A stretch of 64,000 nucleotides of DNA from Hymenobacter sp. YIM 151858-1 (GTDB lineage Bacteria; Bacteroidota; Bacteroidia; Cytophagales; Hymenobacteraceae): positions 1,302,001-1,366,000 of the forward strand of contig NZ_CP110136.1 of assembly GCF_025979705.1 (NCBI RefSeq), in the 5' to 3' direction. Under the pieces are notes generated by a model. That model was not told the DNA's origin. It worked only from the letters and a program-made list of their open reading frames with translations, and did not search any database. Below are positions 1-64,000 of this stretch, in pieces (position 1 is the first letter of the stretch; every line of letters begins with the position of its first letter). A program made the position numbers and the translations under genes.

Positions 1-1
1 C

Positions 2-1057
2 CTGGCCGAGCCGGGCGAGTTTACCAAGCGGGCCTTTCTGCACGGCGCCCTCGACCTGGCCCAGGCCGAAGCCGTAGCCGACCTGATTGCGGCCGACTCG
101 GCCTTGCAGCACCGCGTAGCCCTCAACCAAATGCGCGGTGGCTTTTCGCGCGAGCTGAAGGATTTGCGCCAGCGCCTCATCGATTTTGCTGCCTTGCTGG
201 AGCTGGAGCTGGATTTCGGCGAAGAAGACGTGGAGTTTGCCGACCGCACCGGCCTGCAGCGCCTGCTGACGGAGGTGCAAACCCTGGTGCAGCGACTGCT
301 GCGCTCGTTTGAGCTGGGCAACGTGATTAAAAACGGCGTAACCACGGTAATTGCCGGCCGGCCGAATGCCGGTAAAAGCACGCTGCTCAACGCTTTGCTA
401 AACGAGGAACGCGCCATTGTATCGGCCATACCCGGCACCACGCGCGACTTTATCGAGGACGAAGTAAGCCTCGAAGGCATCAAGTTTCGGTTTGTGGATA
501 CGGCCGGCCTACGCGAAACCACCGACACCGTGGAGGCCATGGGCGTGGAGCGCACCCGCCAGCGCGTGCAGCAAGCCGCCGTGGTGCTTTACCTGTTCGA
601 TTTGGCCACTGCCACTCCGGCCGAGGTAGCCGCCGACGTGGCTGCTTTGCCCTTGCCCGCCGGCGCGCACCTGCTGCTTGTGGGCAACAAGCTCGACGAA
701 GCACCCGCCACCGCCGTAGCTGCCATGCAAGCGGCCTACCCCGAAATGCTGCTCCTGTCGGCGGCCAGCCACCACGGCCTCGAGGCGCTCCGCCAGCGCC
801 TGCTGGCTACCGTGCGCCGCGAAGGCCTCGATGCCGGAGCCGCTACCATTGTTACCAATTTGCGCCACGCCCGCTCCCTCGAAGTTGCGTTGGAGGCCCT
901 AGGTGCCGTGCAGTCGGGTTTGCAGCATGGGCTGGGTACCGAGCTGGTGGCCTCCGACCTGCGCCGCGCCCTAGGTGCCCTGGGCGAAATTACCGGCGAC
1001 ATCAGCACCGACGATCTGCTGGGCAGCATCTTCACGCGCTTCTGCATCGGCAAATAA
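2..1057 (+). CDS. mnmE: tRNA modification GTPase MnmE (TrmE), 5' end outside window
   Basis: This is the C-terminal part of MnmE, which with MnmG builds the 5-carboxymethylaminomethyl group on wobble uridine 34 of certain tRNAs. The open frame runs in from the window edge and starts with the family signature PGEFTKRAF followed by LDLAQAEAVADLI. The embedded G domain shows the P-loop GRPNAGKS, the switch region PGTTRD, the G3 motif DTAGLR and the G4-like NKLD. The protein ends in FCIGK, the conserved C-terminus whose cysteine is characteristic of the family. About 100 or more N-terminal residues (the tetrahydrofolate-binding domain) lie upstream of the window. Two CCTAGG motifs are embedded near its 3' end. 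Identification is secure; only the start is missing. Confidence 0.97.
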   Translation: MAEPGEFTKRAFLHGALDLAQAEAVADLIAADSALQHRVALNQMRGGFSRELKDLRQRLIDFAALLELELDFGEEDVEFADRTGLQRLLTEVQTLVQRLLRSFELGNVIKNGVTTVIAGRPNAGKSTLLNALLNEERAIVSAIPGTTRDFIEDEVSLEGIKFRFVDTAGLRETTDTVEAMGVERTRQRVQQAAVVLYLFDLATATPAEVAADVAALPLPAGAHLLLVGNKLDEAPATAVAAMQAAYPEMLLLSAASHHGLEALRQRLLATVRREGLDAGAATIVTNLRHARSLEVALEALGAVQSGLQHGLGTELVASDLRRALGALGEITGDISTDDLLGSIFTRFCIGK

Positions 1058-1076
1058 CCAGTGGCGCTGGGTTTGG

Positions 1077-1973
1077 CTAGCGGTGCTGCTCGTAGGGCAG
1101 CGCGGGCACGGCTTGGCGCAGGGTTTCCAGCTCCTCAGCCGTAAGCGCCGGGGCCTGGCTGGCCGCCAGGGCCTCGCGCAGGTGCGCCGCGGTACGGATG
1201 CCGATTACCGCCGACGCAACGGCTGGCGGATGCAGCACAAAGCGCGCGGCCACACCGGCGGCAGTGTTTCGGGTGCCCGCCACGTTTCGTACTGCCCCGG
1301 CGGCCCGGGCCACCTGCTCGGCCGAATGCCCTAGGTACGATTTAGCTGCTTTGCCTAACAACAGGCCCTGAGCATAGCTGCCGCGCGCCAGCACGCTTAT
1401 TTGGTGTTGCTCCAGTAGTGGCAGGCACGTTTCCTCGGGGCGGCGGTCGAGCAGGCTGTACTGCATCATCACGCTCACGGCCTGGGAGCGCGCGGCGTAA
1501 GCGCGGATTACGTTGGGCCGGATGGAAGAAATGCCGTAGTACCTGATTTTGCCCTGCTGCTGCAGCAGCTCAAACGCTTCGATAACCTCGTCAATCGGGT
1601 CATCGAGGGTGCCGCCGTGTAGTTGGTAGAGGTCGAGGTAATCGGTTTGGAGGCGGCGCAGGCTTTGCTCGGCGGCTTCTAGGATATAGGCTTTGCGCGG
1701 GTTCCAGTCCCAGCCGCTGCCATCGGGCCGCCATTGGTTACCCACTTTGGAGGCAATTACCACCTGCTGCCGCACGCCTCGCAGGCCCCTGCCAACAGCG
1801 GTTTCGTTTTGGCCGCGGTCGTACAAATCGGCCGTGTCGAAATAGTTGATGCCCTGCTCGAAAGCAAGCCGCAGCAACCGGCCGCTTTCGGCCATATCCG
1901 GCCCGAGCGACATGCACCCAAAGCCAATTTCGCTTACCTCCAGCTTAGATTTTCCTAGGTGGTTGTATTTCAT
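1077..1973 (-). CDS. Aldo/keto reductase
   Basis: A 298-residue soluble NADPH-dependent oxidoreductase of the aldo/keto reductase superfamily (TIM barrel). Visible catalytic elements are Asp and Tyr in NYFDTADLYDRGQNET, Lys in VIASKVGNQW and His in DLYQLHGGTLDDP. These match the Asp-Tyr-Lys-His tetrad. The C-terminal cofactor region VASAVIGIRTAAHLREAL is also present. I chose the ATG at 1973 (MKYNHLGKSKLEVSEIGFG) because family members begin just before the first barrel strand. The frame stays open further upstream but that part has no family similarity. It converges on mnmE with only 19 bases between stop codons. The substrate cannot be inferred. Confidence 0.92.
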   Translation of the reverse strand: MKYNHLGKSKLEVSEIGFGCMSLGPDMAESGRLLRLAFEQGINYFDTADLYDRGQNETAVGRGLRGVRQQVVIASKVGNQWRPDGSGWDWNPRKAYILEAAEQSLRRLQTDYLDLYQLHGGTLDDPIDEVIEAFELLQQQGKIRYYGISSIRPNVIRAYAARSQAVSVMMQYSLLDRRPEETCLPLLEQHQISVLARGSYAQGLLLGKAAKSYLGHSAEQVARAAGAVRNVAGTRNTAAGVAARFVLHPPAVASAVIGIRTAAHLREALAASQAPALTAEELETLRQAVPALPYEQHR

Positions 1974-2295
1974 GTGCGTGCTACTGATCGGATAATGCAA
2001 CAAGCAATTGCACCGCCCCCATGCCGGACCGAGACCTTTGGGCCGGGAACAGGGCAACGGGCCCGCTTTTGGCTGTTGCGGGGCGAAGTTCGGCAGCGTA
2101 TTTCGGCTTAAATATTTTTTAATGCAGCTACCATTCCGGCCTAGGTTCTGGCTGGCTCTCAACAGGAAACAACCCGGCAGCTTTATTTGTACTACACATG
2201 CCCGGGTGCAATTGCATCTTTGGGTTGTACGACAACAGCCTAATTGCGTACTTCGCCTTTGTACGCACCCACTCCTGTCCACTAATCTGTTTGTA
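1974..2295. promoter_or_regulatory. Divergent intergenic region between aldo/keto reductase and citrate synthase
   Basis: This 322-bp spacer must carry the promoters of both divergent genes. In the citrate synthase direction, CATCTTTG at 2215-2222 is one base from the Bacteroidota -7 consensus TAnnTTTG and lies 74 bases before the chosen ATG. A TTTG at 2186-2189 could be an upstream element, but the spacing is longer than usual. One CCTAGG motif sits at 2140. No gene is visible; the open frames here have no recognisable protein features. Confidence 0.45.
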
Positions 2296-3588: not shown

Positions 3589-3611
3589 GTACTGCAAGCC
3601 CCAAAACAGAA

Positions 3612-3639
3612 ACGCCAGCCCTACCAGGCTGGCGTTTTT
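3612..3639 (+). terminator. Rho-independent terminator after gltA
   Basis: A 9-bp perfect stem (ACGCCAGCC / GGCTGGCGT) with a 6-base loop is followed by five T residues. It lies between citrate synthase and the convergent small secreted gene and could serve both. Confidence 0.9.
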
Positions 3640-3658
3640 GCGTTTCGGCCGGTTGGTA

Positions 3659-4027
3659 TTAGCGGCTCGACGACGAGTTATCCATTGCCGTCATGTTCGC
3701 CTTGGTTTGGCGGTAGGCAACCATTTGGCGCGGCCACAAAATGGAGGCCATGTCCCACTCGTAACGATCCTGCAGCTCAGCCAGGGCAACGTCGAGCTGG
3801 GCGGGGTCGTTGGCAAATTTGTCTTTGAGGCTTAGCGTAGCCGCAAGCATATCGAGGTTGAGGCGACGCACCTTTACAAACTGGGCTTCGTTCAGCGGCA
3901 CTTTCTCGGCCAGCTGGCGCGTGAGCTTGGTAGCCCGGCCCTGCAGCGAGTTATCGTCGGAGGCGGCGGCCACCTGGGCAAAGCACAGCGGCAGAGCAAA
4001 AGCGAGCAGGTAGAGTAGCTTTTTCAT
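3659..4027 (-). CDS. Small secreted helical protein, paralogue 1
   Basis: A 122-residue predicted periplasmic protein of unknown function. It starts with a clear signal peptide (MKKLLYLLAFALPLCFAQVAAA, cleavage near residue 22). The mature part is short, charged and probably all-helical: RATKLTRQLAEKVPLNEAQF, then a Leu/Lys/Arg-rich helix and a C-terminal region ending near LWPRQMVAYRQT. It clearly resembles the next gene upstream (4118-4492): both share ATxLTRxxAxKxxLxExQ, LNLxML, DLKxxFAxDP and LxRPxQ. The alternation of helices and the C-terminal L-P-Q element resemble CpxP/Spy-type LTXXQ chaperones, but this is only a resemblance. The tandem pair is on one strand, with 90 bases between them. 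Confidence 0.75.
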   Translation of the reverse strand: MKKLLYLLAFALPLCFAQVAAASDDNSLQGRATKLTRQLAEKVPLNEAQFVKVRRLNLDMLAATLSLKDKFANDPAQLDVALAELQDRYEWDMASILWPRQMVAYRQTKANMTAMDNSSSSR

Positions 4028-4117
4028 AACGGTGGAGTTGATGTGGGTGAGAAAAATCTGAAAGAGAATTCGGAAGGTGGCTCCGCCTGTGAGCGTGGCG
4101 GAGCCCTCCTGCCTGGG

Positions 4118-8782: not shown

Positions 8783-8786
8783 AAGG

Positions 8787-10574
8787 CTAGTCGATTTTCA
8801 AAACAGCCAGGAAGGCTTCTTGCGGAATTTCCACGGAGCCCACTTGGCGCATCCGTTTCTTACCCTCCTTTTGTTTTTCGAGCAGCTTGCGCTTACGCGA
8901 GATGTCGCCGCCGTAGCACTTGGCAATTACGTTTTTGCGCAGGGCTTTCACGGTTTCGCGGGCTACGATCTTCTGACCGATGGCGGCCTGGATGGCAATT
9001 TCGAACATCTGGCGGGGCAGCAGCTCTTTCAGCTTTTCGCACAGGCGCTTGCCCCAGTCGTAGCTCTTGGAGCGGTGCACAATGGCCGACAAGGCATCTA
9101 CCTTCTCGCCGTTGAGCATCACGTCCAGCTTCACCATGTCGGACTGGCGGAAACCGATCAGCTCGTAGTCGAGCGAGGCGTAACCGCGCGAGATGGTCTT
9201 CAGCTTATCGAAGAAGTCGAACACGATTTCCGACAGCGGCAGCTCAAACGACAGCTCCACCCGCTCCGAGGTGAGGTACGACTGACCCTTGATAAGGCCG
9301 CGCTTTTCCATGCACAGCGTGATGATCGGGCCCACAAATTCGGCGGCCGTGATGATCTGCGCCTTGATGTAGGGCTCCTCGATGTGCTTGATTAGGTTGG
9401 GCTCGGGCATTTCGCTCGGGGCCGATACCATTTTGAGCTCGTCGCGGTTGCTGATTACCTTAAACTGCACCGAAGGCACAGTGGTAATCACCGTCATGTT
9501 AAACTCGCGCTCCAGGCGCTCCTGCACAATTTCCATGTGCAGCATACCCAGGAAACCGCAACGGAAGCCGAAGCCCAGAGCCGCCGAGGTTTCGGGCTCC
9601 CACACCAGCGAGGCATCGTTGAGCTGCAGCTTTTCCATGCAGGAGCGCAGCTCTTCGTATTCGGTGGTATCAACCGGGTAAATGCCGGCGAATACCATTG
9701 GTTTCACGTCCTCAAAGCCCACAATGGCCTCCTGTGTGGGGCGCGCTACGTGCGTAATGGTGTCGCCTACTTTTACCTCGCGGGCTTCTTTAATGCCCGA
9801 AATCAGGTAGCCTACGTTGCCCGCCGACATTTCGCCGCGGGGCTCCTGGTTCAGCTTCAATACCCCGATTTCATCGGCGCCGTACTCCTTGCCGGTGGCG
9901 AGGAAGCGCAGCTTGTCGCCCTTGCGCATGGTGCCGTTCTTGATGCGGAACAGCACTTCGATGCCGCGGTACGAGTTGAAAACGGAGTCGAAAATCAGGG
10001 CCTGCAGGGGAGCTTCCGGGTCGCCGGAGGGCGAAGGAATACGCTCCACAATGGCGTTCAGAATTTCTTCGATACCAATACCGGCTTTGCCCGAAGCGTG
10101 AATAATATCTTCGTGCTTGCAGCCGATCAGGTCCACGATTTCGTCCGAAACCTCCTCCGGCATGGCGTGTGGCAGGTCGATCTTGTTCAGAACCGGAATA
10201 ATTTCCAGATCGGCGCCGATGGCCAGGTACAGGTTCGAGATGGTCTGGGCTTCGATGCCTTGCGAGGCGTCAACGATCAGCAGGGCGCCTTCGCAGGCGG
10301 CTATGGAGCGCGACACTTCGTAGCTGAAGTCGACGTGGCCGGGGGTATCAATCAGGTTAAGCGTGTACATCTCCCCTTTGTAGGGGAATTGCATCTGGAT
10401 AGCGTGGCTCTTGATGGTGATGCCCCGCTCCCGCTCCAAATCCATGTTGTCGAGCAGCTGCGCCTGCATCTCGCGCTGACTCACCGTGCTGGTAAATTCC
10501 AGCAGGCGGTCGGCCAGCGTGCTTTTGCCGTGGTCGATGTGGGCGATGATGCAGAAGTTGCGAATGTTCTTCAC
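8787..10574 (-). CDS. lepA: Elongation factor 4 (LepA)
   Basis: A 595-residue translational GTPase that acts on the ribosome during initiation/elongation stress. The G domain shows P-loop AHIDHGKST, switch motif RERGITIK, G3 DTPGHVDF and G4 NKID, followed by the EF-G-like domains and the LepA-specific C-terminal domain ending in [11 protein letters not shown]. Length is typical (about 595-600). The start [20 protein letters not shown] is conserved in the family. A TACCTTCG element on the minus strand at 10604-10611 sits 30 bases upstream. This highly conserved 1.8-kb gene contains no CCTAGG. Confidence 0.98.
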
Positions 10575-13983: not shown

Positions 13984-16900
13984 ATGCACCCAGCTCCCGT
14001 AGCTCCTTATAAACCACAAAACCACGTCCGCATCGTAACGGCGGCGGCGTTGTTCGACGGCCACGACGCGGCCATCAACATCATGCGCCGCATCATCCAA
14101 GCCTCAGGTGCCGAAGTAATTCACCTAGGGCACAACCGTTCGGTGCAGGAAATCGTCGACTGCGCCATTCAGGAAGACGCCCAAGCCATTGCTATTACCT
14201 CGTACCAGGGCGGCCACAACGAGTTCTTCAAATACATGTACGACCTGCTCAAGGAGCGGGGCGCCGGCCACATCAAAATATTTGGTGGCGGCGGCGGGGT
14301 AATTCTGCCCTCCGAAATTGAAGAGCTGCACGGCTACGGCATTACGCGCATCTACTCGCCCGACGACGGCCGCGCCATGGGCCTGCAGGGCATGATCAAC
14401 GACCTGCTCGAAAAGGCCGACTTCCCGACGGGCAAAAACCTGAACGGCGAAGCCAAGCACGTAAAGGAGAAAGACGCCCTGAGCCTAGGTCGCCTCATCT
14501 CGGCTGCCGAGAACTTCCCCGAGGAGTACGAGAAGGTGAAGCAACAGCTGGTTGCCGAGTTCCAGCAGAGCGAGAACGGAGCTGAGTCGAACAACTCACA
14601 AACTCCCACCCTCGCTAACTCTCAAACTAAGAAGGCTCCCATCCTAGGTATCACCGGTACCGGCGGTGCCGGTAAGTCGTCGTTGGTGGATGAGCTGGTG
14701 CGCCGCTTCCTGCTCGACTTCCCCGACAAGACCATTGCCATCATTTCGGTCGACCCCTCGAAGCGCAAAACCGGCGGCGCCCTCCTTGGCGACCGTATCC
14801 GGATGAACGCCATCAACAACCCGCGCGTGTATATGCGCAGCCTTGCCACCCGCCAGAGCAACCTGGCCCTGAGCAAGTATGTGCAGGACGCCGTGGACGT
14901 GGTGCGCGCCGCCGATTTCGACCTGATCATTCTCGAAACTTCGGGCATTGGCCAGAGCGATACCGAAATCATCGAGCACTCCGATGCCAGCCTCTACGTG
15001 ATGACGCCCGAGTACGGCGCCGCCACGCAGCTGGAGAAAATCGATATGCTCGATTTCGCCGATGTCATCGCGCTAAACAAGTTCGATAAGCGCGGCGCTC
15101 AGGATGCCCTGCGCGACGTACGCAAGCAGTACCAGCGCAACCACCAGCTCTGGGACCGTCCGACGGACGAGTTGCCCGTATACGGCACCATTGCTTCGCA
15201 ATTCAACGACCCGGGCATGAACCGCCTGTACCGGGCCGTGCTGGCAACCATCGAGCGGAAAACCGGGGCTACTTTCAGCTCGCAGCTCGAAACTTCGGAG
15301 GCTGCCAGCGAAAAGGTGTATATCATTCCGCCCCACCGCACGCGTTATCTCTCCGAAATCACCGAAACGATTCGTCAGTATGACCAGTGGGTCGATAAAC
15401 AAGCCGAAACCGCTCAGCAACTCTACGGAATCCAGCGAAGCATCGAAGCCGTTCGAAGCCTCGGCAGCGGAGGAGCAACCGCTCACGGAGCCGGGGGGAG
15501 CAGCAGCCACGGACCCCAACCAGCCGAACTCGCAACCGGCCTGGAGAAAGCCTTCGAGGAAATCAAGCTCCGGCTGGACGGGCAAAACTGGCGACTCCTG
15601 GAGACCTGGCCGCAAAAAGTAGCCGCCTACAAAGCCCCGGAGTTCATCTTTAAGGTGCGCGACAAGGAAATCCGCATCAAAACGCACTCCGAAACCCTCT
15701 CGCACCTGCAAGTGCCCAAAGTGGCCACCCCACGCTACGAGGCCTGGGGCGACCTGCTGAAGTGGATGCTGCAGGAAAACGTACCGGGCGAGTTTCCCTA
15801 CACCGCCGGCGTGTTCCCCTTCAAGCGCGAAGGCGAAGACCCCACGCGTATGTTTGCCGGCGAAGGTGGCCCCGAGCGCACTAACCGCCGCTTCCACTAC
15901 GTATCGGCTGGCCTGCCCGCCAAGCGCCTGAGCACGGCGTTTGACTCGGTAACGCTCTACGGCGAAGACCCCGACCTGCGCCCCGACATTTACGGCAAGA
16001 TTGGCAACTCGGGCGTGAGCATCTGCTGCCTCGACGACGCCAAGAAGCTGTACTCCGGCTTCAACCTCGCCGACCCGGTTACCTCGGTGTCGATGACCAT
16101 CAACGGCCCGGCCGCTACGCTAGCTGCTTTCTTTATGAACGCCGCCATCGATCAGCAGTGCGAGCTGTACATCAAGCAGCATGGCTTGGAGGCTGAGGTT
16201 GACGAGAAGATCAAACAGATCTACCAGGCCCTGGGTCAGGAGCGCCCGCGCTACCAAGGCCAGCTGCCCGAGGGCAACGACGGCCTAGGTCTGATGCTGC
16301 TCGGCGTAACCGGCGACCAGGTGCTGCCCGCCGAGGTGTACCAGGAAATCAAAGCCCGCACGCTCTCGCAAGTACGCGGCACCGTGCAGGCCGACATCCT
16401 GAAGGAAGACCAGGCCCAGAACACCTGCATCTTCTCCACGGAGTTCTCGCTGCGCCTCATGGGCGACGTGCAGCAGTACTTCATCACCAATAAGGTGCGG
16501 AACTTCTACTCCGTATCGATTTCGGGCTACCACATTGCCGAGGCCGGCGCCAACCCCATTACCCAGCTGGCCCTCACGCTCTCCAACGGCTTCACCTTCG
16601 TGGAGTACTACGTGAGCCGCGGCATGGATGTGAACGACTTCGCTCCCAACCTGTCGTTCTTCTTCTCGAACGGCATGGACCCCGAGTACTCGGTGATGGG
16701 CCGCGTGGCACGCCGCATCTGGGCCAAGGCCATGAAGCTGAAGTACAGCGCCAACTCCCGCTCGCAGATGTTGAAATACCACATCCAGACCTCGGGCCGC
16801 TCCTTGCACGCGCAGGAAATCGACTTCAACGATATCCGCACCACGCTGCAGGCGCTGTACGCCATCTACGACAACTGCAACTCGCTGCACACCAACGCCT

Positions 16901-17475
16901 ACGACGAGGCCATTACCACGCCTACCGAAGAGTCGGTGCGCCGGGCCATGGCCATTCAGCTCATCATCAACCGCGAGCTGGGCTTGGCCAAGAACGAGAA
17001 CCCGCTGCAGGGCTCGTTCATCATCGAGGAACTGACCGACCTGGTGGAGGAAGCCGTAATGGCCGAGTTCGACCGCATCACGGAGCGCGGCGGCGTGCTG
17101 GGCGCCATGGAAACCATGTACCAGCGCGGCAAAATCCAGGAGGAAAGCCTCTACTACGAGATGCAGAAGCACACCGGCGAGCTGCCCATCATCGGCGTGA
17201 ACACCTTCCTCTCTTCGAAAGGCTCGCCCACGGTGCAGCCGGCCGAGGTTATCCGCGCCACCGAGGAGGAAAAGCAGTACCAGATTTCGATGCTGCAGAA
17301 CCTGCACACCCGCAACCGCGACACGGCAGATAATGCCCTGAAGCGCCTGCAGCAGAAGGCCGTGCAGAACGAGAACCTCTTTGAGGAGCTGATGGAAACG
17401 GTGAAGTCCTGCTCGCTTGGGCAGATTACCAATGCGCTGTTTGAAGTTGGCGGTCAGTACCGGCGGAATATGTAG
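13984..17475 (+). CDS. icmF: Fused isobutyryl-CoA mutase IcmF (B12 domain, G-protein chaperone, mutase)
   Basis: A 1163-residue adenosylcobalamin-dependent acyl-CoA mutase with its chaperone built in. It interconverts isobutyryl-CoA and n-butyryl-CoA (some members also act on pivalyl/isovaleryl-CoA). Order: B12-binding domain at about 12-145 with FDGHDAA (His27 as lower axial ligand); a MeaB/ArgK-like GTPase from about 220 with P-loop GTGGAGKSS; a linker; then the TIM-barrel mutase from about 600 to the end, with [20 protein letters not shown] and [10 protein letters not shown]. The domain order and length fit IcmF rather than two-subunit methylmalonyl-CoA mutase. Two linkers are low-complexity: about residues 195-218 (Ser/Asn/Thr-rich) and about 485-515 (Gly/Ser/His-rich). 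A strong terminator follows. Confidence 0.95.
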
Positions 17476-17611: not shown

Positions 17612-18274
17612 ATGAGTATTTTCAAAAGGAGTTTAGACCGACTCATCAATAAGGCTGATATTTTGAAGCTCAAAAACACGCTAACTGACACTCAATGGCT
17701 ATTGCTCAGCCAAGAGCAAGAAAAGACTGTTTACTCTTTTCTTGATGACAAAAGGTTAGTGATATCCATAAATGGGGAAGGCACATCCGGCAAATGGGAA
17801 TTTATAGTTGACAACGATACTCTTGTCATAGAAACTATCTCAATTAATGTCTTCAACTGCTACATGATATCAGACGATTTTTTAATATTGCACAAGGACA
17901 ATGATTTAAATTTTAATATTCTAGCTAATTTATCCAAACACAAAAACAATGCAAAAGATAATTTATTAAATAATTTTTACAATAAGTATTTCAGTAAAAT
18001 AAACTCAACAACAGATAGTCAGAAGCTATATGCGATAAAAGTACATGAGATAAATGAACTTATCAAAGATGGAAAAAACAAAAAAAGAACCGCAAGAGCT
18101 ATACAAAAAATGGTGTATGATGCGCAAAGCGCTCAGTTGTTTAATCACACATTTCAGCAAATATTCGGAACTAAGATTGCTGACAATTTGAACAACTCAA
18201 ATTTCACTCCTAGTGAAGCCTATGAAATTGCCGAGCCACTAATAAATTTTGGCATCATAAAAAGAAGGAGATAA
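17612..18274 (+). CDS. AT-rich orphan gene, unknown function
   Basis: A 220-residue protein, probably cytoplasmic, rich in Asn, Lys, Ile and Asp. The gene is roughly one third GC against about 60% for its neighbours, and it uses AT-rich codons throughout. The first half is beta-rich (LDDKRLVISINGEGTSGKWEF, then VIETISINVFNCYMISDDFLIL). The second half is helical and Lys/Asn-rich and ends in KRRR. The GKWEF and 'dd.LILhkD' pattern recalls small Bacteroidota proteins of unknown function; I cannot assign a family. It has no signal peptide and no CCTAGG. It sits directly before a REP array and a transposase-like gene, so recent transfer is likely. Confidence 0.7.
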   Translation: MSIFKRSLDRLINKADILKLKNTLTDTQWLLLSQEQEKTVYSFLDDKRLVISINGEGTSGKWEFIVDNDTLVIETISINVFNCYMISDDFLILHKDNDLNFNILANLSKHKNNAKDNLLNNFYNKYFSKINSTTDSQKLYAIKVHEINELIKDGKNKKRTARAIQKMVYDAQSAQLFNHTFQQIFGTKIADNLNNSNFTPSEAYEIAEPLINFGIIKRRR

Positions 18275-18285
18275 ATCGCTCAATG

Positions 18286-18905
18286 TGGCGCGAGTTTAGT
18301 GAAACGTAACTCGTGACCCATTCTGGCGCGAGTTTAGCGCAGCGTAACACGTGACCAGTCTTGATGTGGGGGCTGTGCCTCCACTGCCGCCAACAGCGGC
18401 AAGCCGGAACCGCGCCGCTTGGTAGTGTGCTATCTGAGCGGCGTTGCTCGTTCTGATGGGGCAGGCGCAGCCCCCCTCTGGCGCGAGTTTAGCGTAGCGT
18501 AACTCTCCCAACTGGTACGAGTTCAGCGTAGCGTAACTCGTACCAGTCATCCTACAGAAGCCTCAGCCGCCCCGGCGACAAGCCGGTACCGCGCCGCTTG
18601 GATTCATCCGGGCGGCGCTGCTTTAATATAGTGCTCATTAGGCCGCCAGCGGCAGCGTTACTTCTCGTTTCAGCTGCGGCAGGTGTTGCACCACTATGCT
18701 CCCCATCTGGCGCGAGTTTAGCGCAGCGTAACTCGTGACCAGCTATGAGGTGGAGGCTGCGCCTCCACTGCCGCCAACAGCGGCAAACCGGCCACGCGCC
18801 GCTTGGATAACCTGTTAATCCGGGAGGCGTTGGTCGTTCTGACGAGGGAGGCGCAGCCTCCCGGCAAGGCTGGTCACGAGTTACGCTACGCTAAACTCGC
18901 GCCAG
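18286..18905. repeat. REP/BIME array upstream of the REP-associated transposase
   Basis: At least six imperfect palindromes of about 33-37 bases share the core GCGAGTTTAGCG...CGTAACTCGTG: 18286-18320, 18323-18358, 18478-18510, 18511-18547, 18707-18742 and, inverted, 18870-18905. Between the heads, two longer segments match each other: about 18359-18477 and 18743-18869, sharing ACTGCCGCCAACAGCGGCAA and CGCGCCGCTTGGAT-like strings. A third, partial copy is at about 18555-18625. The units are thus composite BIME-like elements. Several heads end in CCAG and could fold into the hairpins recognised by the adjacent transposase. No gene is present here. Confidence 0.88.
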
Positions 18906-18935
18906 CTAAAGCCGGCAAACGGCTACCTTATCGGC

Positions 18936-19484
18936 ATGAGTGAGAAATACAAGATTCGGGATTCGCGGCAGCTCTACTTTGTGTCCTTCGCCACCGTCAA
19001 CTGGATTGATGTCTTTACGCGGCGACTTTATAACGACATCTTCGTGGACAGCCTGCGCTACTGCCAGCGGCACAAAGGGCTGGAGGTGTACGCGTGGTGC
19101 CTGATGACCAATCATGCCCATCTGATTATCAGCAGCGAGAAGGACAGCCTGTCGGCCATCCTGCGTGACTTGAAGCGGCACACCGCCAAAACCATTCTGC
19201 AAGCCATCCAGCAAAACCAGCAGGAAAGCCGCCGCGAGTGGATGCTGTGGATGTTCGAACGCGCCGGCCAGCGCAACAGCCACAACGAGCAGTACCAGTT
19301 TTGGCAGCAGGGCAACCACCCCATCGAGCTTTATTCCAATGAGCTGCGCCACCAACGACTCGATTATTTACATCGTAATCCGGTAGTTGCTGGGTTCGTG
19401 GACGCACCCGAAGACTTTCAGTACAGCAGTGCTCGTAACTATGCCGGTCGCTCCGGCTTATTGGATGTATTGCTGATTCAGTAG
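18936..19484 (+). mobile_element. REP-associated tyrosine transposase (RAYT, Y1/HUH family)
   Basis: A 182-residue single-domain Y1 transposase related to IS200/IS605 TnpA. The metal-binding HUH motif is seen as TNHAHLI (His60, His62), and the candidate nucleophile is Tyr144 in RLDYLHRNPVVAGFV, a signature typical of RAYTs. It has no associated tnpB. The REP palindromes immediately upstream are its presumed substrates, and the nearest one (18870-18905) ends 30 bases before the ATG. RAYTs are usually single-copy and domesticated, and are thought to disperse REPs. Length and motifs are intact, so it may be active. Confidence 0.92.
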
Positions 19485-19548: not shown

Positions 19549-20979
19549 ATGAACGTTCCAGAAAAGTCAGCCGATGCGGCTCCCGTAACGCTAGTCAGAG
19601 CCTTTGGTGCCGTGAGCGGCATGATGCTGGTTGCCGGTATCGTAATCGGCTCCGGCGTATTCAAGAAGATAGTACCGCTGGCGCAGAGCGGCTTGAGCGA
19701 GGAATGGATACTCGTGGCCTGGGTTGCGGGCGGCCTCGTTACCCTCTGCGGAGCCCTGAACCTGTCGGGCATGGCTTCGCTCACCGAAGAATCGGGCGGC
19801 GTGTACGAATACCTGCGCCTCTCCTTCGGCAACTTCGCGTCGTTTCTGTTCGGCTGGACGGACTTCTCCATTATCGGCTCGGCTTCGGTGGCGGCGCTGG
19901 CCTTCATCTTCGCGCAATCCGTCAACTCGCTGCTGCCGCTGCCCAACCCGGCGCAGGATTTGGCGCATCTATCCATTGGCGGGCTCATCTACCCCTTCGC
20001 CGATTCGGGCATTAAGCTGCTAGCCATCGGCACGGCGGCGGCGCTTACCTGGGTAAACTATCGGGGCGTGAGCGGCAGCGGGCACCTGAGCAACGCGTTT
20101 ACGGCCGCCAAAATCGCGGGCATTCTGCTGCTGGTGCTGGCGGGTACTTTCCTGGCGGCGCCTAGGTCGGCGGAGGTGGCTGCGGTGGCGGCGCCCGTGC
20201 GCGAGGTGCCGTTGGCCAGCGCTTTTTTTGGGGCCTTGCTCAGCGTGTTCTGGGCCTACGATGGCTGGGTTGACCTGTCCTTTGTGACAGGCGAAATCAA
20301 GAACCCGCGCCGGAATGTACCCAGGGCCATTATTGGTGGCGTTACGGTGGCCGTGCTGCTGTACGTGCTCGTCAACTACGCCTACCTGCGGGCGTTGCCG
20401 CTGCCCCAGCTGGCCGCCATTGGCCCGAACGAGATTGGCGCCGCTGTGGTGGCCGAAGCCCTGCTGGGCAAGTGGGGCAAAACGGGGGTGTCGCTGCTGA
20501 TACTAATGAGCGTATTCGGCACGCTGAATGCGGTGCTGCTCTCGCACAGCCGGGTGCATTTCCGCATGGCCCAGGAGCAGTTTTTCTTCCGGTCGGCGGC
20601 GGCAGTGCATCCGCGCTACCGCACCCCCTACCGGGCCTTGTTCTTCACCATGGCCTGGAGCACGGTGCTTATCATCTCCGGCACCTTCGAGCGCCTGACC
20701 GATTTGGTCATCTTTGCCACCTTTTTGTTTTATGGCCTGATGGCCGCGGCCGTGGTCAAGATGAAGCGGCAAGGGCGTATTCCGGGGCCGCCGGGTTATC
20801 CGTACGTGCAAATCGTGCTGCTGCTGTTTGCCCTCACCTTTACCTGCCACACGGTGGTAACGCAGCCGCTGCAGTCATTGCTGGGCCTAGGGCTGATCCT
20901 GACCGGGCTGCCGTTCTACCTGTATTTCGTGCGACAGGCTCGGGCACAAGTCGCCAGGGCTTCGGCCATCAAAGCCTAG
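19549..20979 (+). CDS. APC-family amino acid permease
   Basis: A 476-residue integral membrane transporter of the amino acid-polyamine-organocation superfamily, with about 12 hydrophobic segments. The first helix shows the family's GMMLVAGIVIGSGVFK (unwound helix with GSG substrate-binding turn). LSVFWAYDGWVDLSFVTGEIKNPRRNVPRAI is the helix 6 / loop signature. The overall length matches LAT/SteT-like exchangers. It probably moves amino acids across the inner membrane by exchange or proton coupling; the substrate cannot be read. It starts 65 bases after the RAYT and is not obviously part of an operon. Confidence 0.92.
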   Translation: MNVPEKSADAAPVTLVRAFGAVSGMMLVAGIVIGSGVFKKIVPLAQSGLSEEWILVAWVAGGLVTLCGALNLSGMASLTEESGGVYEYLRLSFGNFASFLFGWTDFSIIGSASVAALAFIFAQSVNSLLPLPNPAQDLAHLSIGGLIYPFADSGIKLLAIGTAAALTWVNYRGVSGSGHLSNAFTAAKIAGILLLVLAGTFLAAPRSAEVAAVAAPVREVPLASAFFGALLSVFWAYDGWVDLSFVTGEIKNPRRNVPRAIIGGVTVAVLLYVLVNYAYLRALPLPQLAAIGPNEIGAAVVAEALLGKWGKTGVSLLILMSVFGTLNAVLLSHSRVHFRMAQEQFFFRSAAAVHPRYRTPYRALFFTMAWSTVLIISGTFERLTDLVIFATFLFYGLMAAAVVKMKRQGRIPGPPGYPYVQIVLLLFALTFTCHTVVTQPLQSLLGLGLILTGLPFYLYFVRQARAQVARASAIKA

Positions 20980-21085
20980 GTGCTGGGCGGCGCTTTCAGG
21001 TAAAACAGGCAGTGGTTGAGCTACCGAAAGCATACGCTTGCCTAGGTGCAACTGGGCAAGCCCGGCAATTGCCTAGCTTTACCTC

Positions 21086-24369: not shown

Positions 24370-25245
24370 ATGCCCGCAACCATCACCATCGCGCAACACT
24401 CCGCTCGCCCGCTCACGGTTAACCGCCTGGGTTACGGAACCATGCGCCTACCCGGGCCCGATGTGTGGGGCGAGCCCGCCGACCGCGCCGAGGCTTTGCA
24501 AATTCTGCGGACGGCTGAGGAGCACGGGGTAAATTTCCTCGACACGGCCGATTATTACGGCCAGGATGTAACGAACCGCCTCATTCGGGAAGCGCTGTAC
24601 CCCTACCCGCCCGAGTTGCTGATTTGCACCAAAGTGGGTGCCGCCCGCCTCCCCGATAAAAGCTGGGTACCCTACAACCGCCCCGAACAGCTGCGCGCCA
24701 GCATCGATAACAACCTGCGCACCCTGGGCCAGGAGCAAATTCAGCTGGTGCACTACCGCGTGATGCCCAAGAGCGACGTGCCCCTGAGCGAGGCCCTAGG
24801 TGCCATGTACGAGATGCAGCGCGAGGGCAAGATTTTGCACGTAGGCCTGAGCAACGTAACGCGCGAAGAGCTGACAACCGGCCTGCAGCTGGGCCCGATT
24901 GCCACCGTTGAGAACATGTATAGTTACGCCCAGCGCACCACCCACCGCACCCCGCACTTCGAAAGCCGGGGCGGCGAAGAAGTGCTGGACCTGTGCGAGC
25001 AGCACGGCATTCCCCTTATTCCGTACTTCTCGCTCTTGCACGCCCTGCCCAAACACTCCGAGCAGGTGGCCGAAATAGCCCGCAAGCACCAGGCCACGCC
25101 GGCCCAGGTAAACATTGCCTGGCTGCTGCACCGCTCGCCCTGGCTGTTGCCCATCCCCGGCACTTCCAGGCTGGCGCACCTGCGCGAGAACCTGGCGGCC
25201 GCGCATATCCGCCTCAGCCCCGACGACATGGCGCACCTAGGGTAG
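24370..25245 (+). CDS. Aldo/keto reductase
   Basis: A 291-residue NADPH-dependent oxidoreductase of the aldo/keto reductase superfamily, unrelated in detail to the one at 1077-1973. Tetrad candidates are Asp and Tyr in NFLDTADYYGQD, Lys in LICTKVGAA and His in IQLVHYR. LPIPGTSRLAHLREN is the cofactor-binding C-terminal segment. It is similar to the oxidoreductase group that includes YdbC-like proteins, but the substrate is unknown. The ATG at 24370 gives MPATITIAQHSARPLTVNRLGYG, a typical start. The stop codon overlaps one of three CCTAGG motifs clustered at 25236-25287. Confidence 0.92.
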   Translation: MPATITIAQHSARPLTVNRLGYGTMRLPGPDVWGEPADRAEALQILRTAEEHGVNFLDTADYYGQDVTNRLIREALYPYPPELLICTKVGAARLPDKSWVPYNRPEQLRASIDNNLRTLGQEQIQLVHYRVMPKSDVPLSEALGAMYEMQREGKILHVGLSNVTREELTTGLQLGPIATVENMYSYAQRTTHRTPHFESRGGEEVLDLCEQHGIPLIPYFSLLHALPKHSEQVAEIARKHQATPAQVNIAWLLHRSPWLLPIPGTSRLAHLRENLAAAHIRLSPDDMAHLG

Positions 25246-25287
25246 CGCCCCGCTGCCCTAGGTGCTGCTGCTCTGCTGCTACCTAGG
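25236..25287. repeat. Cluster of three CCTAGG motifs
   Basis: CCTAGG at 25236, 25257 and 25282 within 52 bases, at the end of the aldo/keto reductase gene and start of the spacer. All are in the CCCTAGGT/ACCTAGGG context. No comparable cluster is present elsewhere in the window. Confidence 0.8.
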
Positions 25288-25363
25288 GCAATTGTTTCGG
25301 GTTGCTGCTACGCTCAGGCCCATTGGGTTTGACGCAAACCGGCTCCGGGGTTTACATTGGGGC

Positions 25364-56872: not shown

Positions 56873-58225
56873 ATGCACCTACCCACGACGATTCGCCGGA
56901 CCCTGAGCCGGCTTTTCATTATAGTTCTGCCAGTTTTGTTGTTCGCCTGCGGCAAGCAGCAAACGCTGCAGGGCATTTTCAGCCAGCCCCGCACGCCGCA
57001 CGAGGCCTACGCGCGCAAGCTGCGCCAGGCCCGCCTCGACCGAACGGCCCTAGGTAAGGATTGGCTGGCTGCGGCCGACCAGGCCCTGAGCGACTCGCTG
57101 GTGGTGACGCTGCCCTTTAAGGAAACCGGCATTTTCCGGGCCGACAAGGCGTTTGCCGCTTCGTACCGGTACGCCGTGCGGGCCGGCGAAAAAATCAATA
57201 TTTCGCTGACGCTTCAGCCCGCCACCGCCGACGTGCATGTGTTTCTGGATGCCTTTGAGCTCGACCCGGCCGACCGCCGCCTGCGCCCCTTAGCCTCGGC
57301 CGATACCGTTTCGCGTTCCTTTAGCTATGTGGCCGAAGACGACCGCCAACACTTGCTGCGCGTGCAGCCCGAGCTGCTGCGCAGCGGGCGCTTTACCATT
57401 CGTATTCAGCGCACGCCTTCGTTAGCCTTCCCCGTGCAGGGCAAAAACGACGTAGCGGTGGGCTCGTTTTGGGGTGCCGAGCGCGACCGGGGTGCCCGCC
57501 GCCACGAGGGCATCGACATTTTTGCGAAGCGCGGTACGCCGGCCGTGGCCGTGGCGCCGGGCATGATTACCCGCGTAAACGAAACGCCCCTAGGTGGTTT
57601 GGTGGTGTGGCTGGCCGATGCCCGGCACGGGCAGCACATTTATTACGCCCACCTCGACAAGCAGCTGGTGCAACCCGGTCAGATTGTGAAAATCGGTGAT
57701 ACGCTGGGCCTGGTGGGCAATAGCGGCAATGCCCGCACTACCAAGCCGCACCTGCACTTTGGCGTGTACCGCAGCGGCCGCGGCGCCGTCGACCCCTACC
57801 CCTTCGTGCGCCGGGCTGATAAAGAACCTGCCGCGCCCCGCACTGCGCCTGAGCGCCTTGGCGAGTGGGTGCGCCTTACAGCCAGCAACACCGCCCTGCG
57901 CCCCGTGCCCACCGAAGCCCGCGGCAAACAATCGGGTATGCCCAAAAACACGCCCCTGCTGGTGGTGGGCGCCACCGCCAATTGGCTGCGTGTTCAAGCC
58001 CCCAACGGCAAGCTCGGCTACGTGCCGGCCAAAGCCGTGGCTACCGAGGCACTGCGCCGCGAAGCCCTGGCCACCACCGCCGACCTGCTGGCCCACCCCA
58101 CTCCCGCCGCTGCCCCGCTCGATACCTTGCCGGCCAACACCAGCGTGGCCGTGCTGGGCGAGTGGAGCGGCTACCGCCTGGTGCGGAACGCCTTGGGGCA
58201 AGTTGGGTGGGTACGGACCACCTAG
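56873..58225 (+). CDS. M23 family peptidase lipoprotein with C-terminal SH3 domains
   Basis: A 450-residue exported peptidoglycan hydrolase. The lipobox VLLFACGK gives a lipoprotein. An N-terminal region (about 30-200) has a beta-sandwich-like PPC-type segment (GEKINISLTLQPATADVHVFLDAFEL). The LytM/M23 domain (about 205-310) has the zinc-binding HEGIDIFAKRGTPAVA and HLHFGVYRSG. The C-terminal region has two SH3-like repeats (about 330-450), each with the WxRV/W.rt.a.nGklGYV style (LRVQAPNGKLGYVPAKAV; SGYRLVRNALGQVGWVRTT). It starts at 56873 for the leader. Confidence 0.92.
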   Translation: MHLPTTIRRTLSRLFIIVLPVLLFACGKQQTLQGIFSQPRTPHEAYARKLRQARLDRTALGKDWLAAADQALSDSLVVTLPFKETGIFRADKAFAASYRYAVRAGEKINISLTLQPATADVHVFLDAFELDPADRRLRPLASADTVSRSFSYVAEDDRQHLLRVQPELLRSGRFTIRIQRTPSLAFPVQGKNDVAVGSFWGAERDRGARRHEGIDIFAKRGTPAVAVAPGMITRVNETPLGGLVVWLADARHGQHIYYAHLDKQLVQPGQIVKIGDTLGLVGNSGNARTTKPHLHFGVYRSGRGAVDPYPFVRRADKEPAAPRTAPERLGEWVRLTASNTALRPVPTEARGKQSGMPKNTPLLVVGATANWLRVQAPNGKLGYVPAKAVATEALRREALATTADLLAHPTPAAAPLDTLPANTSVAVLGEWSGYRLVRNALGQVGWVRTT

Positions 58226-58245
58226 GACTCCCTCTTGGCCCAAAA

Positions 58246-58288
58246 CACAACGGCCCGCTCCACAACCTAGGTGGAGCGGGCCGTTTGG
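58246..58288. terminator. Bidirectional terminator with CCTAGG in loop
   Basis: AACGGCCCGCTCCAC pairs with GTGGAGCGGGCCGTT. The loop is AACCTAG, so CCTAGG spans the loop and the first base of the closing arm. Convergent genes flank it. Confidence 0.9.
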
Positions 58289-61618: not shown

Positions 61619-61719
61619 GCCTTGCTACCCGGGCACCTACAACTTGGCCCGGGCAGGCTGCGTACGGTGCGGCAAGTGCGCAACCCTCGGGTTGCGCGCC
61701 GGTATCAACCCACCGCACC

Positions 61720-62550
61720 ATGAAAACCACCCTTCGCAACCTATTGCCGGCCACCGCTTTGGTAGCCGCGCTGGCCTTTACTCCAGGCTGCGTTTCGCAG
61801 AAAAAATACTCGGCCCTGCAAAGCCAGAACTCCGAGCTGACCCGCTCGCGCGACCAGCTGCAAGCCGAAAAGAACGCCCTGGAGCAGGAAAAAAACCGCT
61901 CCGAGGAAGAGCTGCGCCAACGTCTGCTTTCGCGCAGCCAGCAAGTAAACCGCCTCAACGAAACCCTGAGCGGCGCCGAAAAGGAAAACACGCAGCTTTC
62001 GGCCGATTTGAAGGAGCGCGAGCAGCGCCTGGCCGAGCTGCAAACCAAACTGGCCGAAAAAGACCGCGCCGTGCAGGCTTTGCGCAAGCGCGTGGCCGAT
62101 GCGCTCCTGGGGTTCAACGCCCAGGATTTGCAAGTGAACCTGCGCAACGGCAAAGTGTACGTGTCGTTGTCGGAGCAACTGCTGTTTAAATCGGGCTCGA
62201 CGAAGGTAGACCCGCGCGGCCAGGAAGCCCTGCGCAAGCTGGCAACGGCCCTCAAAGGCAACCAGGACGTGAACGTGCTCGTGGAAGGCCACACCGACAA
62301 CGTGCCCATCCTGAAGGGTACCGCCGGCATTCGCGACAACTGGGATTTGAGCGTGCTGCGCGCCACCGAAATCACGCGCATTCTCACCGAAGCCGGCATG
62401 GCGCCGGGCCAGGTTACGCCCTCGGGCCGCTCGCAGTACGTGCCGGTAGCCCAAAACGATACCCCGCAAAACAAATCCCTGAACCGCCGCACCGAAATCA
62501 TTCTCACGCCCAAGCTCGACGAGCTGTTCCAGATTCTGGAGCAGAACTAA
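61720..62550 (+). CDS. OmpA-family lipoprotein with coiled coil
   Basis: A 276-residue lipoprotein. The lipobox AFTPGCVSQ gives Cys24. A long coiled coil (about 28-125) is rich in Glu, Gln, Lys and Leu heptads (LQAEKNALEQEKNRSEEEL). The C-terminal OmpA/MotB-like domain (about 135-265) has NVLVEGHTDNVPI and ends in RRTEIILTPKL. Such proteins tether the outer membrane to peptidoglycan across the periplasm. The gene is followed by a strong terminator. Confidence 0.92.
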   Translation: MKTTLRNLLPATALVAALAFTPGCVSQKKYSALQSQNSELTRSRDQLQAEKNALEQEKNRSEEELRQRLLSRSQQVNRLNETLSGAEKENTQLSADLKEREQRLAELQTKLAEKDRAVQALRKRVADALLGFNAQDLQVNLRNGKVYVSLSEQLLFKSGSTKVDPRGQEALRKLATALKGNQDVNVLVEGHTDNVPILKGTAGIRDNWDLSVLRATEITRILTEAGMAPGQVTPSGRSQYVPVAQNDTPQNKSLNRRTEIILTPKLDELFQILEQN

Positions 62551-62566
62551 CCTAGGCGGCTTCAGC

Positions 62567-62607
62567 AAAAACGCCGCGTGCCCAAATGGGTGCGCGGCGT
62601 TTTTTTT
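62567..62607. terminator. Terminator after the OmpA lipoprotein gene
   Basis: AAAACGCCGCG-TGCCC pairs with GGGTG-CGCGGCGTTTT and is followed by seven or more T residues. Confidence 0.9.
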
Positions 62608-62625
62608 AGTGATGGCAAGCTGCCG

Positions 62626-63201
62626 CTACTCGCGCCCTAGGTGAAACTCCTGCACGGGTTGCCACTGCCGCCCATCGTGGCGGAACAGCACCAGCGAGGT
62701 TACTGGGAACGTGGCCGCGTAGCTGCGCTGGGCGAAGTCCTGCTTTAGCGCGGGCACTTGCTCGGGCGGCAAGTCGCGGGTGGCCAGCGTCATGTGGGGC
62801 GTAAAGGGGCGCTTTTCGTGCGGAATGGCGGGCAGCTCGGCCTTGCAGTAGCGCACCAGCTCGGCGTGCAGGTGCTTAAGTGGCTCGGCCCCCGCCACGT
62901 GCACAAACAAGGTGCGGTTGCCAAACCAGGCAAAATCGTGCAGCCCCACCTCCACCGCGGCGTGCGCGGCCGCAAAGCGGGCCAGCGCCGGCAGTGCCTG
63001 CGGCTCGAACTCGGCGGGCACCAGCCGAAAAGGCGGAATCAGGGTGATGTGCGGCGGCAGGCGCACGGCGTTGCATGAGCCGGTGCGGCGGTTTACTTCC
63101 TGCTTCAGGGCCCACACCTCCGAAAACACGGGCTCGGGCGGCAAGGTAGCCAACAGGTAAAGCGAAGGCGGCGTGCGAGTGGAGGTTGGCTGTTCGTTCA
63201 C
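62626..63201 (-). CDS. 2'-5' RNA ligase family protein (2H phosphoesterase)
   Basis: A 191-residue member of the 2H phosphoesterase superfamily (LigT/ThpR and cyclic phosphodiesterases). The paired catalytic motifs are PPHITLIPPF (HxT) and TPHMTLATRD (HxT), each followed by conserved hydrophobic strands. Such enzymes hydrolyse 2',3'-cyclic phosphate or act as RNA 2'-5' ligases. The length is typical. The substrate is unknown. The ATG at 63201 gives the natural start. Confidence 0.92.
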   Translation of the reverse strand: MNEQPTSTRTPPSLYLLATLPPEPVFSEVWALKQEVNRRTGSCNAVRLPPHITLIPPFRLVPAEFEPQALPALARFAAAHAAVEVGLHDFAWFGNRTLFVHVAGAEPLKHLHAELVRYCKAELPAIPHEKRPFTPHMTLATRDLPPEQVPALKQDFAQRSYAATFPVTSLVLFRHDGRQWQPVQEFHLGRE

Positions 63202-63248
63202 AGCTACTCCAACGCACGCCGCCGGCTTCGGGGTTACAGCCCTAGGTA

Positions 63249-64000
63249 CTACAGGCCGTATTTGCTCAGCAGGTAAATCATGCTGGCCATGGCCGCGCCG
63301 CCCAGCTCCAGCTCGCGCTTGTGCACCTTATCGAAGGTATCGGCGGCGGTGTGGTGGATGTCGAAGTAGCGCTGCGAGTCGCAGTCGTAGCCGATCAGCA
63401 CCTTGGCCTGGTCTTTCAGGGGGCCGATATCGGTGCCGCCGTGGCCGGGCTGCAGGTTGCCCGCGTTGTAGGGCTGCAGCAGCGGGCTCCACTTCTGCAT
63501 TTGCGCAATAGTGGCTGTGTTGTTGGTTTCGAGGCCAAAGCCGCGCGGGGTAAAGCCGCCGCCATCCGACTCAATGGCCGCTAAGTGCTTTTCGCCGGCG
63601 GCTTTGGCCAGTTCGGCGTACTTAATGCCGCCGCGGTTGCCGTTTTCCTCGTTCATGAAGAGCACCGCCCGCACCGTGCGCTCGGGCCTCAGGCCCGAGG
63701 CCAGCAGCAGGCGCAAAGCCTCGATGCTTTGCACGCAGCCGGTGCCGTCGTCGTGGGCGCCCTGGGCCAGGTCCCAGGAGTCGAGGTGGCCGCCCACGGT
63801 TATGATTTCATCGGGCTGCTTGCTGCCCTTGATTTCGCCCACCACGTTGTAGGATTTCACGTCGGGCAGGGTTTGGCAGCCCATTTCCAGCTCAAATGTC
63901 AGGCCGGGCTCCTGCTTCAGCTGCTCGCTCAGGCGGTTGGCCGCCAGGGTGCTCAGGGCCGCGGCCGGCACCTGGGTTACACCCTCTTCGTAGCGCATGG
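63249..64000 (-). CDS. M28 family metallopeptidase, 5' end outside window
   Basis: The C-terminal roughly 250 residues of an exported zinc peptidase of family M28. Metal ligands are visible in order: GGHLDSWD (His, Asp), GAHDDGTGC (bridging Asp), MNEENGNRGG (Glu-Glu, general base and ligand), ESDGGGF (Asp) and DIHHTAADT (His). The pattern and length match the secreted M28 peptidases (carboxypeptidase Q-like) with PA-domain insert, whose N-terminus lies outside the window. The frame runs to the edge without a supported start. Confidence 0.93.
   Translation of the reverse strand, partial: MRYEEGVTQVPAAALSTLAANRLSEQLKQEPGLTFELEMGCQTLPDVKSYNVVGEIKGSKQPDEIITVGGHLDSWDLAQGAHDDGTGCVQSIEALRLLLASGLRPERTVRAVLFMNEENGNRGGIKYAELAKAAGEKHLAAIESDGGGFTPRGFGLETNNTATIAQMQKWSPLLQPYNAGNLQPGHGGTDIGPLKDQAKVLIGYDCDSQRYFDIHHTAADTFDKVHKRELELGGAAMASMIYLLSKYGL

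Follow-up and report, generated by a model that had tools for sequence, protein, structure and literature searches.

Why does the hexamer CCTAGG recur so often along a single bacterial chromosome, and what keeps it there? The question is raised by a stretch of 64,000 bases from Hymenobacter sp. YIM 151858-1 (C1:1302001-1366000 of genome G000, which comprises 4.62 Mb in three contigs; hereafter the window), in which a first-pass annotation had counted by eye about 86 copies of CCTAGG, with about 21 predicted by composition, and more than 50 copies of an extended octamer. Exact counting returned 86 hexamers and 56 octamers (30 of CCCTAGGT and 26 of ACCTAGGG), and the expectation for the hexamer is about 21 by mononucleotide composition (our arithmetic) and 10.7 by an order-2 Markov model. 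Here we report that CCTAGG, embedded in flanks that vary with the lineage, is a highly iterated word of the chromosome, dense in a handful of lineages dispersed over the Hymenobacter family.

Abundance of CCTAGG within and between genes

The tetranucleotide CTAG at the center of the word is usually rare in bacteria. It occurs 120 times in the window, and 72% of these copies lie inside CCTAGG, close to the three quarters annotated by eye. The enrichment extends to the rest of the genome, where the annotation had proposed to look for it: G000 holds 5,325 copies of CCTAGG (1,152 per Mb) and 3,106 copies of CCCTAGGT/ACCTAGGG, distributed equally over the two strands (1,551 and 1,555 for CCCTAGGT, versus 2 and 0 for a control octamer with its letters reversed), and 20 other chromosomal stretches (400 kb) contain 469 hexamers, or 1.17 sites per kb. 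The earlier observation was therefore right, and understated. CCTAGG reaches 7.1 times its order-2 expectation, the opposite of the depletion expected of restriction site avoidance. It fails to show in a maximal-order Markov ranking of the window because the word itself raises the counts of its own 5-mers and 4-mers.

That this excess stems from codon usage, from the composition of the proteins in amino acids or from faulty assembly has virtually no chance of being correct, even though most coding sites do fall on one kind of codon pair. Within 464 kb, 382 open reading frames (ORFs; 393 kb of coding sequence), defined heuristically without annotation by a length of at least 90 amino acids and by contrast in GC content at third codon positions, were subjected to 30 rounds of synonymous-codon shuffling within ORFs. 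Shuffling predicts 36.1 +/- 6.5 copies of CCTAGG versus 357 observed, and 3.3 +/- 1.5 copies of CCCTAGGT versus 208 observed, so that the enrichment withstands the codon-usage control suggested with the first count. The coding sites are mostly CTA-GG Leu-Gly pairs, found in both gene orientations (164 for CCTAGGT and 133 for ACCTAGG), with 15 and 25, respectively, in the Pro-Arg reading; the two placements, as well as the intergenic copies, had all been noticed by eye. Non-coding DNA is denser in the word than coding DNA (2.19 versus 0.92 per kb), with intergenic densities of 3.15 per kb between convergent, 2.97 between co-directional and 1.70 between divergent genes. The word also contains the stop codon of 34 of the 165 TAG-ending heuristic ORFs in the 464 kb. 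Its recurrence in nine genomes of two genera, described below, likewise speaks against codon usage or an artefact.

Other hexamers depart from the synonymous shuffles in the same ORFs: TGCGCA lies above them (371 versus 227.5 +/- 9), and GCTAGC (35 versus 72.6) and GGATCC (5 versus 54.3) lie below. GGATCC is bimodal across the genus g5, with 0-20 sites in many genomes and 100-300 in others (75 in the 4.6 Mb of G000), a pattern suggestive of intermittent avoidance of a restriction site.

Carriers, dialects and turnover of the word

Among 200 genomes sampled from the family, nine contain more than 5,000 copies of CCTAGG (745-1,481 per Mb; 788 in G224 and 745 in G226). These carriers are G000, G005 and G007 from the genus of the window and G058, G125, G183, G224, G226 and G230 from another genus. 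Four genomes (G208, G209, G217 and G218) have 1,209-2,331 copies, and the remaining 187 have 54-888, including five congeners of the window with 123-249 copies (hereafter the low congeners), in which CTAG is depleted. Across a phylum sample of 395 genomes, none outside the family exceeds 734 copies; raised counts of CCCTAGGT were found in three genomes from other families of the order (167 in G112, 98 in G084 and 95 in G117), far below the carriers. None of 80 related loci, with Hymenobacter norwichensis, piscis and terrenus as the named relatives, exceeds 0.3 CCTAGG per kb. On a tree of one conserved protein of 1163 amino acids, which is probably methylmalonyl-CoA mutase-like, with 27 rows that include all nine carriers, the carrier state requires at least four changes (bootstrap range 4-5).

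The word is scarce in parts of the carrier genomes. G000 has two further contigs, of 158 and 101 kb, whose size alone suggests plasmids; the 120 kb examined of them contain 10 sites, a density 14 times below that of the chromosome; a single copy was found in the 20-kb chromosomal stretch at 1.10-1.12 Mb, and another single copy in the 20 kb examined of a 42-kb contig of G005. Recent arrival would explain the scarcity in all these places under any model.

The strict unit in G000 is CCTAGGT with C, G or T as the left base. When flank pairs are merged with their complements, 555 sites divide into 327 A..G, 145 A..C, 41 A..A, 9 A..T and 33 others, such that a T stands on at least one side, on either strand, at 522 of them. 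The palindromic octamer ACCTAGGT occurs only 9 times versus 127 expected with independent flanks, and thus the idea of a palindromic octamer as the strict word does not hold in the clade of the window. Outside CCCTAGGT, G is preferred on either side (67% and 52%). Recognition of the word looks sharp: most octamers with one mismatch stay near a masked order-3 background, with a modest excess at a few positions, and the octamer load of G000 falls from 18.9 times expectation at zero mismatches to 0.98 times at one, a class that is inflated by the accepted left-base variants; in the low congeners, the respective values are 0.06 and 0.35. The word-poor stretch L018 was excluded from the mismatch loads and from the spacing variation given below, and included in the other stretch counts.

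Sites lie about 770-820 bases apart on average, near random, with a coefficient of variation (CV) of 0.963 versus 0.987 +/- 0.042 under random placement and no distance that stands out strongly among the intervals. Relative to the G-rich strand, 265 sites over 21 stretches are oriented with it and 266 against. Neither result supports chromosome organization, one of the causes first proposed, in a regular or oriented form. Among the 33 close pairs (less than 80 nucleotides; 501 intervals), 25 are inverted and 8 direct (p 0.005), and some of them lie in stem-loops. Two long inverted repeats, at L030:14882-14942 and L031:7114-7148, carry the CCTAGG word in their arms, the former being terminator-like.

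The carriers share the CCTAGG core and differ in its flanks (CCCTAGGT, CCCTAGGG or ACCTAGGT). The dialect of G000, G005 and G007 is CCCTAGGT; that of G058 is CCCTAGGG, with independent flanks (84 C..G versus 82 expected, n=179); and that of G226 and G125 is ACCTAGGT, also with independent flanks and accompanied by a second word, ACCTAGCT. G224 looks alike in 20 kb, and G183 and G230 have a mixed dialect. The survey was made without L111 (490 bases of G224) and L107 (13.6 kb of G125 with 3 sites), and with L130 (G028) masked as N.

Several relatives show different words, which are leads from samples of 20-66 kb. A GGCCTA word (TAGGCCA, CTAGGCC, GTGGCCTA) takes the place of CCTAGG in G208, G209 and G217 (L116-L119, L122, L123), and G218, the fourth genome of that clade, shows a trace of it in 46 kb; its group label in the tree rests on this trace together with its high CCTAGG count. 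Weak enrichment of GGCTAGCC / GCTAGCCC in G032 and G049 (L131, L134), labeled from 20-26 kb, may represent a further CTAG word. Elsewhere, CCTACCCCC occurs 11 times versus 0.2 expected in G052:C32:500001-520000 (L135), and AGGTATAG occurs 19 times versus 0.7 expected in 21 kb of Pontibacter sp. FD36 (L182), where it may be a repeat family or an iterated word.

How completely the word fills the positions open to it is seen at Leu-Gly pairs preceded by C, counted in six of the nine carriers. The fraction reading CTA-GG is 54% of 582 pairs in G000, 56% of 166 in G005, 66% of 121 in G007, 66.5% of 176 in G226, 69% of 155 in G183 and 46% of 195 in G058, and it is 0-1.4% in the five low congeners (98, 91, 72, 76 and 95 pairs). 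When G000 sites from one region were aligned to the low congeners (81-83% identity), the site was present in 0 of 14, 18, 21, 17 and 22 cases. The corresponding hexamers have one to four bases changed, transversions included, most commonly to CCTGGG, CCTCGG or CCCAGG, with 0 to 2 gapped cases.

Among G000, G005 and G007 (86-87% identity), 38 sites are present in all three genomes, 31 in two and 26 in one. On a star tree these proportions reject pure loss (p 0.009), which suggests that sites were gained after the last common ancestor of the three. At fourfold sites, the three carriers differ from one another by 0.27-0.31, and carriers differ from low congeners by 0.32-0.41; a gain of the word on the carrier stem would therefore have been fast. 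These distances would also be compatible with loss in the branch of the low congeners, yet most of the family is low.

Existing sites are also retained preferentially. Where two of the three genomes agree and the amino acids are identical, the third keeps CCTAGG in 75 of 90 comparisons versus 402 of 605 for other Leu-[GAVTP] hexamers (Fisher p 0.001) and 54 of 81 for other Leu-Gly hexamers (p 0.013), the comparisons not being mutually independent. The protein-matched control matters, since without it CCTAGG ranks only 198 of 888 6-mers with at least 30 comparisons. By rough arithmetic of our own, CCTAGG is lost from Leu-Gly sites at about 0.45 of the control rate. Selection of that size alone would raise the odds of a site about fourfold, and the actual odds at C-preceded Leu-Gly pairs rise from about 0.01 to above 1; thus, either gains must also be elevated or the force used to be stronger. 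Direct conversion of CCTGGG was considered as the main route of gain and rejected: it was seen in 2 of 62 comparisons forward versus 12 of 145 site comparisons back, and CCTGGG at variable sites therefore represents mostly losses.

Sites and neighboring features in the window

The 86 hexamers of the window start at positions 898, 970, 1330, 1954, 2140, 3285, 4137, 4815, 5621, 5780, 6440 and 7832 in its first 10 kb; 10888, 11212, 11795, 11893, 12220, 12995, 13613, 14124, 14484, 14643 and 16284 between 10 and 20 kb; 20161, 20886, 20975, 21041, 21346, 21571, 22303, 24182, 24795, 25236, 25257, 25282, 26581, 28329, 28521 and 28999 between 20 and 30 kb; 30433, 31423, 32698, 32957, 33150, 34517, 34603, 35217, 35561, 37016, 37953, 38007, 38593 and 39521 between 30 and 40 kb; 40583, 40605, 42630, 42900, 44543, 45082, 45600, 46629, 47435, 47620, 49117 and 49590 between 40 and 50 kb; 50719, 50826, 50990, 51405, 54009, 54247, 54442, 54655, 55517, 56201, 56543, 57049, 57589, 58221 and 58266 between 50 and 60 kb; and 60053, 60690, 61065, 62551, 62636 and 63241 in the last 4 kb.

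Four sites within a 1163-aa ORF (13984-17475) illustrate their replacement in relatives. The minus-strand site ACCTAGGG at 14123..14130 corresponds to ACCTTGGC in low congeners G002 and G006 and to ACCTCGGC in G001 and G003. The plus-strand site GCCTAGGT at 14483..14490 reads CCCTCGGC, CGCTGGGC, GCCTGGGC and GCCTCGGC in four low congeners. At 14642..14649 (plus strand), TCCTAGGT is matched by TCCTGGGC, TCCTCGGC, TTCTGGGC or TTCTCGGC in low congeners, by TCCTCGGC in G007 and by TTCTAGGC in G005. A second GCCTAGGT, at 16283..16290 (plus strand), is present in G005 and corresponds to GCCTGGGT in G007 and to GCCTGGGC or GCCTCGGC in low congeners. By its sequence, the plus-strand site at 20975..20980 supplies the TAG stop codon of the ORF at 19549-20979. 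Three sites of alternating orientation at 25235..25288 (25236 minus, 25257 plus, 25282 minus) form two close inverted pairs, and another such pair lies at 58220..58272 (58221 minus, 58266 plus).

The annotation had drawn attention to the absence of the word from 16.3-20.1 kb and from lepA. Both are indeed free of sites, lepA at 8787..10574 on the minus strand and, within the longer gap, the plus-strand stretch 17612..19484, which comprises a 220-aa ORF lacking a Pfam match at E 0.001 and a gene of the Y1_Tnp (IS200-like transposase) family at 18936-19484 (plus strand, Pfam match). Neither the gap nor the site-free lepA is remarkable by itself: with near-random spacing at the mean distance given above, our arithmetic makes one 3.9-kb gap among about 86 not unusual. 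Beside the transposase gene, at 18280-18940 of the window, short units like GGCGCGAGTTTAGCG in both orientations have the look, to the eye, of repetitive extragenic palindromic (REP)-type elements.

Candidate causes and comparison with known systems

A methyltransferase target was among the causes first suggested. We searched 38 genomes of our choice from the family sample (9 carriers, 9 with intermediate or slightly raised counts and 20 low) for the Pfam families PF00145, PF01555, PF02086 and PF02384, and 18 genomes for PF07669. Among the nine carriers, PF00145 is present in 2, PF01555 in 4, PF02086 in 0, PF02384 in 8 and PF07669 in 8, G005 having PF07669 below the cut-off only. None of these five DNA-methyltransferase families is common to all nine carriers, and the suggestion thus gains no support. 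The congeners G005 and G007, which have the same word, have not one of the five in common: G007 has a single match overall (PF01555), in an assembly of eight contigs, 99% complete, in which a gap could hide a gene, and G005 has one PF02384 match, one PF07669 match below the cut-off and no PF01555. PF02384 and PF07669 are common in non-carriers too, with totals of 33 of 38 and 16 of 18 genomes searched, respectively. The methyltransferase candidates of G000 itself (L009-L012) are unlikely as the common cause because none of the five families tracks the word; two of them, L010 (near 1.09 Mb) and L012 (near 1.18 Mb), are found on either side of the word-poor stretch at 1.10-1.12 Mb.

These searches bear on the explanation modeled on the highly iterated palindromes (HIPs) of cyanobacteria, by which an orphan methyltransferase reading CCTAGG or part of it, either outside the five families or missed, would ratchet the word up through methylation-directed mismatch repair (Elhai's model). 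The palindromic core, density, patchiness and word switching all match HIPs; however, the distribution of the five families and a spacing without any set point make this origin improbable. A DNA uptake word, in which a competence receptor would prefer fragments with CCCTAGGT and uptake with recombination would drive the word up (molecular drive), is a serious contender that we nevertheless regard as unlikely. It would account for thousands of copies of an asymmetric word in equal numbers on the two strands, for a fixed core with lineage-specific flanks, for the higher density in non-coding DNA with its maximum between convergent genes, for the surplus of inverted over direct close pairs, some of which lie in stem-loops, and for the low number of sites on plasmid-sized contigs (10 in 120 kb versus 469 in 400 kb of chromosome); in a study of Neisseriaceae, uptake words are described that form dialects about a short core, lie in the core genome and occur as inverted pairs in terminators (PMC3630211). 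Two of the dialects here are full palindromes, though, the filling of near or more than half of the permissive codons at random spacing exceeds the one site per fragment that uptake requires, and, in the literature searched, Hymenobacter, natural transformation and competence occur together only in a paper on the SOS response. Selection could also favor the word as a site of protein binding or recombination on the chromosome, Chi-like or nucleoid-associated. This reading fits a GC-rich, strongly over-represented word that is scarce on plasmid-sized contigs; it is made quite improbable by the lack of orientation bias, regular spacing or a strong preferred distance, and by the high occupancy of permissive codons.

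The likeliest cause, although unproven and held tentatively, is a local, word-specific bias of repair or conversion. The force would act on each site alone, biasing which of two alleles survives through the repair or conversion of mismatched DNA during replication or homologous recombination. Its recognizer would be a DNA-binding or mismatch-processing protein that reads the CCTAGG core and whose flank preference may drift between species; as far as the searches reach, this protein is not one of the five methyltransferase families. Action on single sites is suggested because positions fill singly and at random, and a function requiring one site per kb is unlikely because it would probably leave most permissive positions empty and the sites evenly spaced.

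Several observations weigh against a local bias. No gene for a recognizer was found, and the preference for a local bias over a spaced function derives from occupancy and spacing. Selection on individual sites would also yield random spacing, and it is by a rough estimate of ours that the enrichment exceeds what the modest retention could produce. An uptake word would explain the inverted close pairs (25 of 33) and the paucity of sites on plasmid-sized contigs equally well or better. On 115 aligned Leu-Gly pairs, the negative log-likelihood of a relic undergoing pure loss (138.3) is almost that of steady turnover (137.5), so that the force may have been strong once and weaker since, and direct gain from CCTGGG accounts for only the 2 of 62 comparisons given above.

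It is possible, if rather doubtful, that, in the Hymenobacter family, a sequence-specific process independent of methylation turns permissive positions of the chromosome into a single self word, can switch dialect between related species, and has arisen or been lost repeatedly around CCTAGG. If true, genome writing in the manner of HIPs would have originated a second time, independently and outside cyanobacteria. We found no earlier report of a CCTAGG word in Hymenobacter in the literature searched, which leaves out most subscription papers. The presence of carriers and non-carriers within one genus, at least four changes of state on one gene tree and the lack, among the five searched, of a methyltransferase family common to all carriers make comparisons of gene content, mutation and uptake feasible. 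CTAG, rare as it is in bacteria, can underlie a self word, and we speculate that such a word would make a good marker since foreign DNA seldom has it.

Chi sites are over-represented GC-rich words that are usually oriented with replication, unlike CCTAGG with its 265 to 266 sites relative to the G-rich strand. The parallel with cyanobacterial HIP1, drawn in the first-pass annotation, holds as an analogy: like HIP1 and the alternate HIPs (Elhai 2015, PMC4390886), CCTAGG is a GC-rich word with a palindromic core, genic as well as intergenic, equal on the two strands, patchy in distribution, and absent from or replaced by related or different words in relatives. The hexamer of G000, at 1,152 per Mb, falls within the 1,000-2,000 per Mb given there for HIPs, with G224 and G226 lower and the octamer CCCTAGGT being non-palindromic. 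The differences are the host, which belongs to Bacteroidota and not to cyanobacteria, the asymmetric flanks in the clade of the window, and the methyltransferases, which accompany the word in cyanobacteria; here, none of the five families searched was found in every carrier. That paper mentions some HIP1 genomes without the CGATCG enzyme and calls the relationship behind HIP1 a mystery, its cause being still unsettled, and CCTAGG is absent from the main text. Like the uptake dialects of Neisseriaceae (Frye et al. 2013, PMC3630211), CCTAGG has a fixed core and dialects in its flanks, sits at permissive positions and forms some inverted pairs; here, the two strands are also equal and the plasmid-sized contigs poor in sites. 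Unlike those dialects, it has a palindromic core, and no competence or receptor is known here, competence genes not having been searched for. The steep drop in over-representation from perfect copies to one mismatch resembles the uptake-enhancing sequences of H. influenzae and N. gonorrhoeae, which show a significant excess at one mismatch too (PMC1939737), in contrast to the one-mismatch octamers here, which mostly lie near background with a modest excess at a few positions. By analogy, CCTAGG works like a HIP or an uptake-sequence dialect.

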